64,000 nt of DNA from an uncultured Holophagaceae bacterium. GTDB lineage: Bacteria; Acidobacteriota; Holophagae; Holophagales; Holophagaceae. The position numbers and the translations under genes are program-made. The DNA is taken from positions 1 through 64,000 of the forward strand of contig CAIPAY010000141.1 of the NCBI GenBank assembly GCA_903863195.1, given 5' to 3'. The notes beneath the pieces are model-generated. The model was not told the DNA's origin. It worked only from the letters and a program-made list of their open reading frames with translations, and made no database searches. Position 1 is the first letter of the stretch; every line of letters begins with the position of its first letter. Of this stretch, positions 14,799-19,762 are shown in pieces.

Positions 14799-14949
14799 GC
14801 AGCAACTCCCTAAGTGACAACCGGTTAAACGGCTATCCATTGCCATAAAAGACTCGCCATCAAGGCCTGAAACATTTCGTCCAGGGCCAAGGTCGTGACT
14901 TGTTTTTCGCTAAAAATTCGCCATACTTGGATCCCTTCCGGAGGTCCTG

Positions 14950-16104
14950 GTGCTGGCGATGTGGGTTCCTGAGCTGCCGTTCCAGCTGGCCTGTGGCCGG
15001 GACGGGGCCCTGCGGGACCGGCCCCTGGCCTTCCTGAACCAGGAGACGCCGCGCACGCCCAGCCTCTGGTTCGTGAACCGCCTGGCGCGGGCCGGGGGGC
15101 TGGCGCCGGGTCTGCCCCTGGACCGGGCGCTGCGGGCGGTGCCGGGGCTGCGGGTGCTGGACCCGGCCCCCCAGGTCTGGTGGGAGGCCCAGGTCTCCCT
15201 GGGGGACTTCCTGCAGCAGTGGACCCCCCAGGGGCAGCTGCTGCGCCTGGGCGAGGCGCTGGTGGAGCTCCAGGGCACCCAGGGCCTCTTCGGGCCGCTG
15301 GCAGACACCGCCGAGCGCATCCGGCGGGAGCTGGCCCAGCGGCACGGCTGGGAGAGCCACGGCGGCCTCTCCCTGAGCGCCACCGCCGCCCAGCTCGCCG
15401 CCCGGGCCGAGCACCACCTGGAGCGGGTGGGGGAGGGCGGGGAGGCGGTCTTCCTCGCGCCCCACCCCCTGCGCCGCCTGCCGGACCTGGCCCCGCGCCT
15501 GCAGGAGCGCTTCCAGCGGCTGGGCCTCCGCAGCTTCGGCGACCTCCAGCCCGTGCCCCTGCCGGTGCTGGTGGAGCTGACGAACCCCAAGCTGGCGCCG
15601 GAGCTGCGGGCCCGGGTCCGGGGCGAAGACCGGCCGCGCCTGCCCCTGCTCACGGAGCGCCCGGGCCATGTGCGCCACGGCTGGCGGCTGCAGCCGCCCC
15701 GGCTGCCCGAGGAGGCGGGGCTCGCCGCCCGCTGCCTGACCTGGCTCTGGTCCGATCCCCGCAGCCCCCGCCGCCTGGTGCTGCGGTGGTGGGACGTGGA
15801 CGGGGAGCCCCACACCTGGCGCGCCGCCCCGGAGGACCTCGCGGAGCCGCCCCTGGCCCTGGCCCGCCGCATCCAGCGGGCCTTCCTCGAGGGCACCACC
15901 CGCCGCCTCCTGGTGCGCGAGGTGGAGCTGCGCCTGGCCTGGGGCCTGGGCCGGGAGCGGGGCCTCTTCCTGACCCCCCTCCAGGAGCGCCTCGACCGCC
16001 TGGAGCCCGTCCTGGCCCGCCTCCGCCGCCGCTTCCCCGATCAGGCCGTCCTGCCGGGGTGGGCCGGGCGGGGGCCCCCTTCGGCCCACGAGGCCAGGTC
16101 CTGA
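14950..16104 (+). CDS. imuB: ImuB-like Y-family DNA polymerase homologue (mutasome component)
   Basis: 384 aa (GTG 14950 or ATG 14959); MWVPELPFQLA, G.ALVELQGTQGLFG and LRRLPDLAPRLQERFQRLGLRSFGDL fit an inactive Y-family protein; dnaE2 lies downstream. Confidence 0.75.
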   Translation: MLAMWVPELPFQLACGRDGALRDRPLAFLNQETPRTPSLWFVNRLARAGGLAPGLPLDRALRAVPGLRVLDPAPQVWWEAQVSLGDFLQQWTPQGQLLRLGEALVELQGTQGLFGPLADTAERIRRELAQRHGWESHGGLSLSATAAQLAARAEHHLERVGEGGEAVFLAPHPLRRLPDLAPRLQERFQRLGLRSFGDLQPVPLPVLVELTNPKLAPELRARVRGEDRPRLPLLTERPGHVRHGWRLQPPRLPEEAGLAARCLTWLWSDPRSPRRLVLRWWDVDGEPHTWRAAPEDLAEPPLALARRIQRAFLEGTTRRLLVREVELRLAWGLGRERGLFLTPLQERLDRLEPVLARLRRRFPDQAVLPGWAGRGPPSAHEARS

Positions 16105-16118
16105 CTGGGCGTTGAAGG

Positions 16119-16149
16119 TTGACGGGGGAGATAAATGTTCTACATTTAT
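16119..16149 (+). promoter_or_regulatory. Candidate promoter and operator of brnT/brnA-like operon
   Basis: TTGACG at 16119 with TACATT/ACATTT 16-17 nt downstream; perfect 8-bp palindrome ATAAATGT-TCT-ACATTTAT at 16131..16149. Confidence 0.55.
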
Positions 16150-16159
16150 TGGAGAGGGA

Positions 16160-16411
16160 ATGATCTTTCACTGGGATGAAGAGAACCGTCCCCACATCGC
16201 GCGTCACGATGTGTCTGCAGCCCAGGCGGAGGCGGCTTTCCAGGCCGAGGATGCCCAGGTGTTTCCGGACGCCACGCGCCTGAATCGCTGGCTTTTGGAG
16301 GCAACGGTGGAGGAGCGGACGCTCAGGGTGGTCTTCGCCCGCGTCTTCCCTGAAGGCTTCCGGATCATCACCGCGCACTGGATGCACCCCAAACGCAGGA
16401 GAACGCCATGA
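16160..16411 (+). CDS. brnT: BrnT-family toxin
   Basis: 83 aa from ATG 16160; MIFHWDEENRPHIARHDVSAAQAEAAFQ...RTLRVVFARVFPEGFRIITAHWM. Confidence 0.8.
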   Translation: MIFHWDEENRPHIARHDVSAAQAEAAFQAEDAQVFPDATRLNRWLLEATVEERTLRVVFARVFPEGFRIITAHWMHPKRRRTP

Positions 16412-16746
16412 CCGCCAAGAAAACCAAGCGCATGTCCATGGCCGAGTTTGAGAAGGCCTCCGGTCCCGGCGAACCGCTGGAAGAGCTCCGGGCCCGGCAG
16501 GAAGTTGATGCCGCCTGGGCGGAACGGGCGTTCCGAGGGGAGGAACCCCTGGGCATACCCATCCGCATTCAGCGGGGAAGGCCAAGGGCGGGGGATCCCG
16601 CCGCTCCGACGGTGGTGAAGGCCATCCGGCTACCCGAAACCCTGCTGAAGCAACTTCAGACCCGGGCCAAAGCCGAAGGGCTCTCGCTGAACGCCCTTCT
16701 TCAGACGGCCGCCGCCGAATACCTCGTCCGTCATCGGGGCGCCTGA
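16408..16746 (+). CDS. brnA: BrnA-like/CopG-type antitoxin
   Basis: 112 aa; 4-bp overlap with brnT; C-terminal ribbon-helix-helix-like VVKAIRLPETLLKQLQTRAKAEGLSLNALLQTAAAEYL. Confidence 0.75.
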   Translation: MTAKKTKRMSMAEFEKASGPGEPLEELRARQEVDAAWAERAFRGEEPLGIPIRIQRGRPRAGDPAAPTVVKAIRLPETLLKQLQTRAKAEGLSLNALLQTAAAEYLVRHRGA

Positions 16747-16837
16747 ACGCCCAACCAAAAATCAACGCAGAGCCGCGCTGTCTTTTCCCTCTCGGAATCG
16801 CCAGCGGCGATTCCGAGCACCCCCCGATTGGCCCGCC

Positions 16838-19762
16838 ATGTTCGCCCTCGGCATTTCCGATTTCAGTGTGGGAGAAGGGGTCTACCCGGCGGCGCAGCTG
16901 CTGCGGGTGGCCCAGGGCCTGGGCTACCGGGACCTGGTCTGCTGGGACCAGGGCACGGCGGGCTATCCCAAGCTGCGGGAGACCCTGGCGTGGATGCGCC
17001 AGGCCCGGGAGCTGGAGGGCCTGCCGCCGGACCCGGCCTGGACGGACTTCCGCCTGCACCTGGGCAGCCGCTTCACCTGGCGGGGCCACGACTACGGCGC
17101 GCTGCCCTGCTCGGCCGCGGGCCACGGCGCCCTGAACCGGCTGCTCACGGCCCTGGCCCACGAGGCGCGGCCGGAGCTGGCCATCCCGGGCCTGGGCGCG
17201 CCGGAGCCGCCCCGGGACTGCGTGCTGCTGGCGGAGGACCGGGCGGGCCTCGACGCGCTGCTGCGGGAGGGCTTCGAGGCGGTGCTGCTGGGCCATCCCC
17301 GCCGGGCGCAGGAGGCCCGGGCCGCGCTGGCGGCGGGCCTCTCCGTGGCCGCGCCCCAGGTGCTGCGCTTCCGCACGGCCGAGGGCCTGGAGATGCACCG
17401 GCTCAAGCGCGCCATCGCGCAGCAGGCCACCCTGGTCCGCACCGAGTGCCTGTGGGAGCCCGCCGAGGCCGCCGTGCCCCGGCGCGACTGGGAGGCCCGC
17501 TTCCCCTTCGCCGAGCCCGCCGTGGCGCGGACCACCGCCGCCCTGCTCGAGCGCGTGGCGGGCGGGGCCATCCCCTGGGGCGAGTGGGTGGTGGCCCGGC
17601 CCCTGGGACAGGATGAGACGGACTTGGACGCCCTGCTGCGGGAGCGCGTGCAGGCCGGCGTGGCGGCGCGCTTCCCGGTGCTGCGCGGGGACATCCTCGC
17701 CCGCCTGGAGCAGGAGCTGGACCTGATCTCGTACAAGGGGTTCGCACGGTACTTCCTGCTGGTGCAGGACATCGTGCAGGCGCTGAAGCACCAGGGCATC
17801 CCCAGCCGCATCTGCGGCCGGGGCAGCGGCGCGGCCTCCCTGGTGAGCTACGCGCTGCAGCTCAGCAACGTGGATCCCATGGCCACGAACCTGATGTTCG
17901 AGCGCTTCCTCACGAAGGAGCGGAAGGATCCGCCGGACATGGACATCGACTTCGCCTGGGACGAGCGGGACCGTGTCATCCAGGCCGTCTTCGAGCGCTA
18001 TGGCCGCGAACGCGTTGCCATGGTGTCCAACCACGCGTTCTTCAAGGCCAAGGGGGCCCTGCGGGCCGTGGCCCAGGCCCACGGGCGGCCCGAAAATGAA
18101 TTGAAGCAGCTGGCCCGCTATGTCCGCGGCTGGGAGGGCGGCCTGGTCCGCGCCGCGGAGAACCCCGTCTGGGATGCCATCCTGCGCCAGGCCGCGGGGC
18201 TGAAGGGCCACTTCCACCAGTTCTCCGTGCATCCCGGCGGCACCCTCGTCACGCCCGGTCCCCTGTGGGCGCACGCGGCCTTCCAGCCCGCCCCGGCCAA
18301 GGAGGGCGTGTCCATCACCAGCTGGGACAAGGACGGCGTGGAGAACTACGGCCTGGTGAAGATCGACCTGCTGGGCAACCGCAGCCTCGCCGTGCTGCGG
18401 GACGCCTACGCGGTGCTGGGCAGCGCCGTGCCGGCGGACCCCGGCACCCACTCGCGCAACGACCCCGCCACCCAGGCCCTGCTGGCCCGGGGCGACAGCA
18501 TCGGCGTCTTCTACGTGGAGAGCCCCGCCACGCGCCAGCTCCAGCAGCGGGTGGGGAAGGGGGACTTCGAGACCCTGGTGATCCACTCCAGCCTCATCCG
18601 CCCCGCCGCCTACCGCTGGGTGGACCGCTACGTGAAGCGCTCCCGGGGCGAGGAGGCCTGGGAGCCCAGTGATCCCGTCTTTGGACATCTGCTGTCCGAC
18701 AGCCATGGCGTGCTCATCTACCAGGAGGACGTCCTCAAGGTCTGCGTGGAGCTGGCGGGCTGGACCCACCACGAGGCGGACCAGCTGCGCAAGCTGCTGG
18801 GCAAGCCCGGCTGCGAGGTGCGGCTGCCCACCTTCGAGGCCCGCTTCCGCCGCGGCTGCGCCGAGCGGGGCGTGCGCCAGACCGTGGTGGACGAGGCCTG
18901 GGACATGATCCGCACCTTCACGGGCTACTCCTTCTGCAAGCCCCACTCCGCCAGCTACGCGCAGGTCAGCTTCGAGAGCTCGTGGATCAAGGCCCACCAC
19001 CCGGCGGTGTTCTTCGCGGCGGTCATCACCAACCAGGGCGGCTTCTACCCTGCCATCGCCTACCTGGGCGACGCCCGCCGCCACCGGTTGGTGGTGCGCG
19101 GCCCCGACGCCAATGCGTCCCTGTGGCCCTTCGCCGCCGAGGGCGAGCAGGCCCTGCGCGTGGGGCTGATGCAGGTGCAGGGCGCCCTCGCGCCGGAGGT
19201 CCGGGCGCTGCTTACGGAGCGGGAGCGCGGCGGCCCCTTCGCCAGCCTGGACGAGCTGCTGGGCCGGGTGCGGCTCTCGGTGCCCACCGCCGAGGCCCTC
19301 TGCGCCGCGGGGGCCTTCGACCGCTGGGCGCCGGACGGCGACCGCACGCGGCTCATGTGGGCGCGCCTGGGCGGAGTGCCGCCGGGCGTGCGGCCGCGGC
19401 CCACGGATCCCTTCGAGCGCGCCGACCTGGAGATGGCGACCCTGGCCCTCACGCTGGAGCTGCACCCCGCGGCCCTGGCCCGCTTCCGCAAGGGCGGCGG
19501 CCCGGACCGGGCGGCCGATGTGGTGAAACCCGGTCGCCGCCTGCGCTTCTGGGCCCTCGTGGTGGCCGACAAGGAAGTGGCCACGGAGAAGGGCGAGCGC
19601 ATGCAGTTCATCACCTTCGAAGACGAGACCAGCCTCTGCGAAGCCGTGGCTTTTCCGGACGCCATGCGCCGCCGCCAGCGCCCCTTCCGCGTGGGCGACA
19701 TCGTTCCTGTCGTCGGCCGATCCACGCAGCAGGATGGCCTGGCCGTGCTGGAGGTGAGCTGA
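16838..19762 (+). CDS. dnaE2: Error-prone DNA polymerase DnaE2
   Basis: 974 aa; RICGRGSGAASLVSYAL, ERKDPPDMDIDFAWDERD, FCKPHSASYAQVSF; position after imuB. Confidence 0.92.
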   Translation: MFALGISDFSVGEGVYPAAQLLRVAQGLGYRDLVCWDQGTAGYPKLRETLAWMRQARELEGLPPDPAWTDFRLHLGSRFTWRGHDYGALPCSAAGHGALNRLLTALAHEARPELAIPGLGAPEPPRDCVLLAEDRAGLDALLREGFEAVLLGHPRRAQEARAALAAGLSVAAPQVLRFRTAEGLEMHRLKRAIAQQATLVRTECLWEPAEAAVPRRDWEARFPFAEPAVARTTAALLERVAGGAIPWGEWVVARPLGQDETDLDALLRERVQAGVAARFPVLRGDILARLEQELDLISYKGFARYFLLVQDIVQALKHQGIPSRICGRGSGAASLVSYALQLSNVDPMATNLMFERFLTKERKDPPDMDIDFAWDERDRVIQAVFERYGRERVAMVSNHAFFKAKGALRAVAQAHGRPENELKQLARYVRGWEGGLVRAAENPVWDAILRQAAGLKGHFHQFSVHPGGTLVTPGPLWAHAAFQPAPAKEGVSITSWDKDGVENYGLVKIDLLGNRSLAVLRDAYAVLGSAVPADPGTHSRNDPATQALLARGDSIGVFYVESPATRQLQQRVGKGDFETLVIHSSLIRPAAYRWVDRYVKRSRGEEAWEPSDPVFGHLLSDSHGVLIYQEDVLKVCVELAGWTHHEADQLRKLLGKPGCEVRLPTFEARFRRGCAERGVRQTVVDEAWDMIRTFTGYSFCKPHSASYAQVSFESSWIKAHHPAVFFAAVITNQGGFYPAIAYLGDARRHRLVVRGPDANASLWPFAAEGEQALRVGLMQVQGALAPEVRALLTERERGGPFASLDELLGRVRLSVPTAEALCAAGAFDRWAPDGDRTRLMWARLGGVPPGVRPRPTDPFERADLEMATLALTLELHPAALARFRKGGGPDRAADVVKPGRRLRFWALVVADKEVATEKGERMQFITFEDETSLCEAVAFPDAMRRRQRPFRVGDIVPVVGRSTQQDGLAVLEVS

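Follow-up and report, generated by a model that had tools for sequence, protein, structure and literature searches.

The imuB–dnaE2 junction of Geothrix is a fixed slot for alternative, probably exchangeable toxin–antitoxin modules

The window analyzed here is a 64,000-nucleotide stretch of genomic DNA from an uncultured Holophagaceae bacterium, whose genome grouped with 46 relatives into a single genus of the family. Named members of this genus are Geothrix, a bacterium of soil and sediment. We focused on a locus where imuB, a toxin–antitoxin (TA) pair and dnaE2 follow one another in the same direction, and which is organized as follows (window coordinates):

14900..14927, + strand: imuB promoter and predicted SOS operator (−35 TTGTTT, −10 CATACT, with a TTCGC-N6-TTCGC direct repeat within the spacer).
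14950..16104, + strand: imuB, coding for a catalytically dead Y-family protein of 384 aa (Pfam IMS, 1.6e-9; Pol IV alignment).
16119..16146, + strand: promoter of the TA module itself (TTGACG-16-TACATT), kept in BrnT/BrnA carriers.
16131..16149, no strand assigned: perfect palindrome ATAAATGT-TCT-ACATTTAT spanning the −10 box, a putative antitoxin operator read from the sequence.
16160..16411, + strand: BrnT-family ribonuclease toxin of 83 aa (Pfam BrnT_toxin; AlphaFold match to 3u97 and 7vd7).
16408..16746, + strand: ribbon-helix-helix (RHH), BrnA-like antitoxin of 112 aa (RHH_1 slightly below cut-off).
16791..16817, + strand: perfect 12-bp hairpin without a T-run ahead of dnaE2 (fold z = −2.9).
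16838..19762, + strand: dnaE2, coding for an error-prone C-family polymerase of 974 aa (Pfam DNA_pol3_alpha and finger).

Gene coordinates, Pfam matches and a promoter scan upheld the initial annotation of this locus as imuB and dnaE2 separated by a TA pair that has a promoter of its own. Indeed, the promoter of the module was the only sigma-70-like promoter found between 14500 and 17000, where 0.2 were expected. Translation of imuB, the sole Y-family match in its genome, starts at a GTG codon with GGAGG five bases upstream. Alignment of its GEALVEL stretch to LDEAYLD of Pol IV revealed that the Glu survives whereas the Asp has disappeared; the lack of Y-family catalytic acids highlighted by the initial annotation is therefore real but no oddity, an inactive active site being the published norm for ImuB (PMC6511836). 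The best NCBIfam match of DnaE2 was the error-prone polymerase PRK05672 (5.6e-134, under its curated cut-off), and a search of its N-terminus (16838..17500) retrieved no PHP-domain match, so that this domain looks degenerate.

No imuA had been noted in the window initially, and none was found by genome searches. The ImuA model NF033429 retrieved from the genus genomes only recA, far under the cut-off, plus two very weak extra matches, while PF00154 again hit recA only, the single RecA-family gene in the genome of the window. Since the ImuA model reached its cut-off in none of the control genomes, these searches provide good, not absolute, evidence of absence, and a divergent ImuA could have escaped them. 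Five relatives encode an additional ImuB, 43–45% identical, and several species carry it in a second imuB–dnaE2 pair (for example L065 in G031 and L072 in G002). In G031, a dnaE2 of its own comes immediately after this copy, which is preceded by SSB- and antirestriction-like genes (named by inspection), and it may therefore reside on a mobile element. An imuA accompanying a second imuB elsewhere had been contemplated as evidence against the annotation, and none adjoins the G031 copy in the stretch read. Beyond the Holophagaceae, no ImuB reached E 1e-20 in a class-wide search. Separately, the complete genome of G033 (contig C1, near 92543..93030) showed no imuB match and only fragments of dnaE2, and appears to have lost the mutasome.

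Regarding the TA pair, the toxin scored 34.6 bits against Pfam BrnT_toxin (cut-off 34.5). Its PDB sequence search returned no match, whereas structure search with the AlphaFold model (pLDDT 88) matched Brucella BrnT (3u97; TM 0.72/0.77) and a Salmonella TA complex (7vd7). In the essential Lys–His pair of BrnT (residues as in PMC13284704), the His (His16) is invariant and the Lys is replaced by Arg. The toxin gene comes first and overlaps that of the antitoxin by ATGA. The antitoxin matched RHH_1 weakly (20.2 bits, cut-off 20.5) and none of the BrnA-specific models, so that it is called BrnA-like on account of its RHH fold and the order of the genes. A palindrome core, AATKGTTCTACATTTAT, is present in most BrnT carriers, and the palindrome over the −10 box is likely the operator of the antitoxin. 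More distant BrnT copies (~35–54% identity) occur elsewhere in Geothrix genomes; BrnT–antitoxin copies of this kind were observed in three of them (L009, L010, L016), with toxin identities of 49–54%.

We then read the imuB–dnaE2 junction in 40 of the 47 genus genomes, which revealed three states: empty (17), occupied by BrnT–antitoxin (10), or occupied by a DUF4160–DUF2442/Xre module (13). The latter scored 69.6 bits for DUF4160 (cut-off 23) followed by 67.9 bits for DUF2442 (cut-off 23.9), domains known as a type II TA pair, for which work on Dickeya provided the name DhiTA (PMC8198452). Attempts in Thermus to establish plasmids with the first gene but not the second failed, suggesting neutralization of the DUF4160 product by that of DUF2442 (PMC12724237). 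Judged by its domains, the Geothrix module is a DhiTA-like type II pair unrelated to BrnT–antitoxin, whose antitoxin carries an extra C-terminal Xre-type HTH; PADLOC reported no defence match apart from generic HTH matches of DhiA. Five BrnT–antitoxin modules are intact, four have a broken toxin (G014, G045, G021, G027) and one lies at a contig edge (G025), whereas eight DhiTA modules are intact, three have a truncated toxin (G011, G020, G022) and two are cut by contig ends (G028, G039). All modules share the insertion point, a few codons past the LPGW motif at the ImuB C-terminus, each carries its own promoter, and all are co-oriented with imuB and dnaE2. Sixteen of the empty junctions leave a gap of 2–8 bp; G036 is also empty, yet the first bases of the DhiTA promoter, CTTGAAACAAGCCAATAAAAGCC, remain there joined to the start of dnaE2, which reads as a deletion scar. 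An assembly or binning artefact, with modules joined through misassembly of metagenome-assembled genomes (MAGs), to which the window and many relatives belong, is very improbable: reading frames and promoters are intact, and misassembly is refuted for the isolates, which show all three states, namely BrnT (G. fermentans, G. fuzhouensis), DhiTA (G. oryzisoli, G. paludis) and empty (G. campi, G. terrae, G. limicola).

In other genera of the family, imuB and dnaE2 mostly nearly touch, and this looks like the ancestral arrangement. One sister-genus genome (G072) also holds the DUF4160–DUF2442/Xre module. Other, unrelated insertions at this junction were noticed in sister genera (L118 and L119 in g6 genomes, L127 in G069), among them what look on inspection like a DUF1016-like nuclease and a GxxExxY-type protein. 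The imuB–dnaE2 junction in Geothrix is best read as a fixed site at which small type II TA modules are exchanged. Among the papers available for searching, none dealt with TA systems in Geothrix. The synteny comparison proposed in the initial annotation found relatives with imuB–dnaE2 but without a TA pair (n = 17), which excludes an obligate coupling of the pair to mutagenic repair; coupling, one of the two scenarios put forward at that stage, does not fit as stated.

The other scenario, a simple insertion, does not hold as a single random event, since 23 species carry one or the other of two unrelated TA pairs in this slot and the tree shows ~15 state changes. On an imuB+dnaE2 tree of 39 tips, slot states require 15 changes, compared with a mean of 17.8 for shuffled labels (P 0.08), that is, they are distributed nearly randomly. 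G037 and G038 hold different modules although each sequence window to the left and right of the slot is 94–100% identical between them, and the modules of G003 and G005 are 97–98% identical with imuB at 92%; modules are otherwise as diverged as their neighbours, or more so. Close homologues (DhiA at least 85%, BrnT at least 70%) were not found elsewhere in Geothrix genomes. This pattern fits modules that are old residents of one site, repeatedly exchanged or lost. We infer the route of exchange between species, most simply homologous recombination in the flanking genes. Same-state species displayed no consistent excess similarity near the junction (P ~0.03–0.04 in three scattered windows of 15), and the lack of a clear flank–module association indicates that any recombination tracts must be short or old, if they exist at all. 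The same scatter could reflect trans-species polymorphism, with empty, BrnT–antitoxin and DhiTA alleles kept circulating by selection, for example time-varying phage or DNA-damage pressure, and the antitoxins serving as exchangeable dnaE2 regulators. We consider this rather unlikely; if true, species would tune mutagenesis through swaps of TA modules.

Inspection of the scars in the damaged toxin genes evidenced about four independent events: one deletion common to G014 and G045; in G021, loss of the start plus a stop; in G027, a frameshift that is possibly an assembly error; and the truncation that G011, G020 and G022 share as a clade. No antitoxin has been lost, on the other hand, and all copies that could be read completely have their full length. 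Antitoxin dN/dS values range from 0.06 to 0.2 across species, and those of DhiA reach 0.24–0.32 between species of the toxin-less clade versus 0.07–0.17 elsewhere, which suggests partly relaxed constraint. The antitoxin is thus under purifying selection even without the toxin (dN/dS at most 0.32). Loss of the toxin before the antitoxin is the expected order in any TA pair because the reverse would kill, and continued constraint hints at a regulatory role without proving it. These features bear on whether the junction merely tolerates insertions and the TA pairs persist there by addiction, with no gain for mutagenesis. Dispensability in 17 species, repeated toxin decay and the sister-genus insertions all agree with such selfish persistence, as does the judgement, in a Pseudomonas putida study, that chromosomal TA modules are more selfish than beneficial (PMC7280312). 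However, purifying selection continues to maintain the promoter and the antitoxin once the toxin is lost, and modules are confined to the junction rather than dispersed, always in the orientation of imuB and dnaE2; this explanation accordingly seems doubtful to us, though a serious one.

The region between the antitoxin and dnaE2 lacks a T-run in 22 of 24 carriers, which makes transcriptional read-through into dnaE2 plausible, and the antitoxin stop lies only 13–22 bp from dnaE2 in G003, G005 and G027 (13 bp in the first two). In the window species, however, the stable hairpin at 16791..16817 separates both genes and counts against read-through. A similar palindrome precedes dnaE2 in some DhiTA carriers (for example G038, G030 and G041), and its likeness across species with different modules makes a small repeat or RNA element possible. 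The short antitoxin–dnaE2 distances, together with the intact antitoxins that outlived about four toxin losses, would also suit selection on antitoxin and promoter as an SOS-independent dnaE2 switch in which the toxin is incidental. Toxin-first loss is nonetheless expected anyway, and the raised DhiA dN/dS in the toxin-less clade argues against such a switch, which we regard as improbable.

A block upstream of imuB, TTGTTTTTCGCTAAAAATTCGCCATACTT, is conserved across Holophagaceae, and its 12-mer core, TTTTTCGCTWWW, is common to the recA and lexA promoters (loci L073–L112). This 12-mer is rare, with 3–5 sites per genome, and 14 of its 18 sites in five genomes map to recA, lexA or imuB promoters. 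As SOS boxes, the other sites were discarded: three fall in a terminator-like hairpin upstream of mraZ in two species, with one or both arms matching, and one is a stray match in an RND pump locus. Collectively, these data argue strongly for TTTTTCGCTWWW as a putative LexA box, providing a concrete prediction for Holophagaceae. The motif is absent from the TA module promoters. Of the two genes whose genome search had been suggested, imuA was not found, and lexA escaped detection in the MAG of the window (93% complete) but is present in 44 of the 47 genus genomes. SOS coupling of the TA pair, the part of the initial proposal that stands as plausible, would thus proceed via read-through from the imuB promoter, the TA promoter itself having no box.

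By a slight preference, we favour a model in which transcription from an SOS-inducible imuB promoter crosses an exchangeable, autoregulated TA module in a fixed slot and continues into dnaE2. The dinB-yafNO operon of Escherichia coli offers a parallel: its TA pair is transcribed both from the SOS promoter of the polymerase gene and from an autoregulated promoter belonging to the pair (PMC2814082). LexA would control the imuB promoter through the predicted design shared with recA and lexA. At an empty slot, dnaE2, 2–8 bp after imuB, would be expressed only together with imuB; at a filled one, the module would add an antitoxin-repressed promoter, and dnaE2 would be reached both by SOS read-through from imuB and from this second promoter, which would open upon antitoxin degradation. 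DNA damage would consequently co-induce toxin, antitoxin and mutasome, and the toxin would often be lost while promoter and antitoxin are retained. LexA binding, read-through, autoregulation, toxicity and benefit are all inferred steps of this model.

Whether chromosomal TA modules benefit their hosts or serve themselves is a long-running dispute. Geothrix offers a natural experiment in this regard, as close and partly culturable species share one SOS mutagenesis operon that contains no TA, one type, the other type or the antitoxin only (as in the toxin-less G. rubra). Through the slot, error-prone DNA repair is connected with a possible growth-arrest switch, and comparing species under DNA damage would directly test TA effects on mutagenesis or survival.

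Several known systems resemble this locus in part. In dinB-yafNO (PMC2814082), a type II TA pair likewise lies directly 3' of a Y-family SOS gene in a two-promoter layout, the SOS and autoregulation steps being predicted in Geothrix; TA families differ, however, and the Geothrix pair, which is absent or swapped between species, is flanked by imuB and dnaE2 instead of following a single polymerase gene. The imuA-imuB-dnaE2 cassette (PMC6511836, PMC3919608) also pairs an inactive Y-family ImuB with DnaE2, here under a predicted SOS promoter, whereas no imuA was found in Geothrix and a TA module can interrupt the cassette. The Deinococcus lexA-imuY-imuB-C-dnaE2 cassette (PMC8072749) is imuA-less and likewise has a small gene separating dnaE2 from the Y-family gene, but that gene is the mutasome component ImuB-C, where Geothrix has a TA pair. 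BrnTA of Brucella abortus (3u97) shares the toxin-first order, the BrnT fold and the toxicity-linked His, while Arg replaces the neighbouring Lys16 in the Geothrix toxin and the antitoxin matches RHH models only. The DUF4160-then-DUF2442 order is that of Dickeya DhiTA and the Thermus plasmid module, to which the Geothrix antitoxin adds its C-terminal Xre-type HTH. The new element is a TA pair sitting as a swappable part between two mutasome genes.
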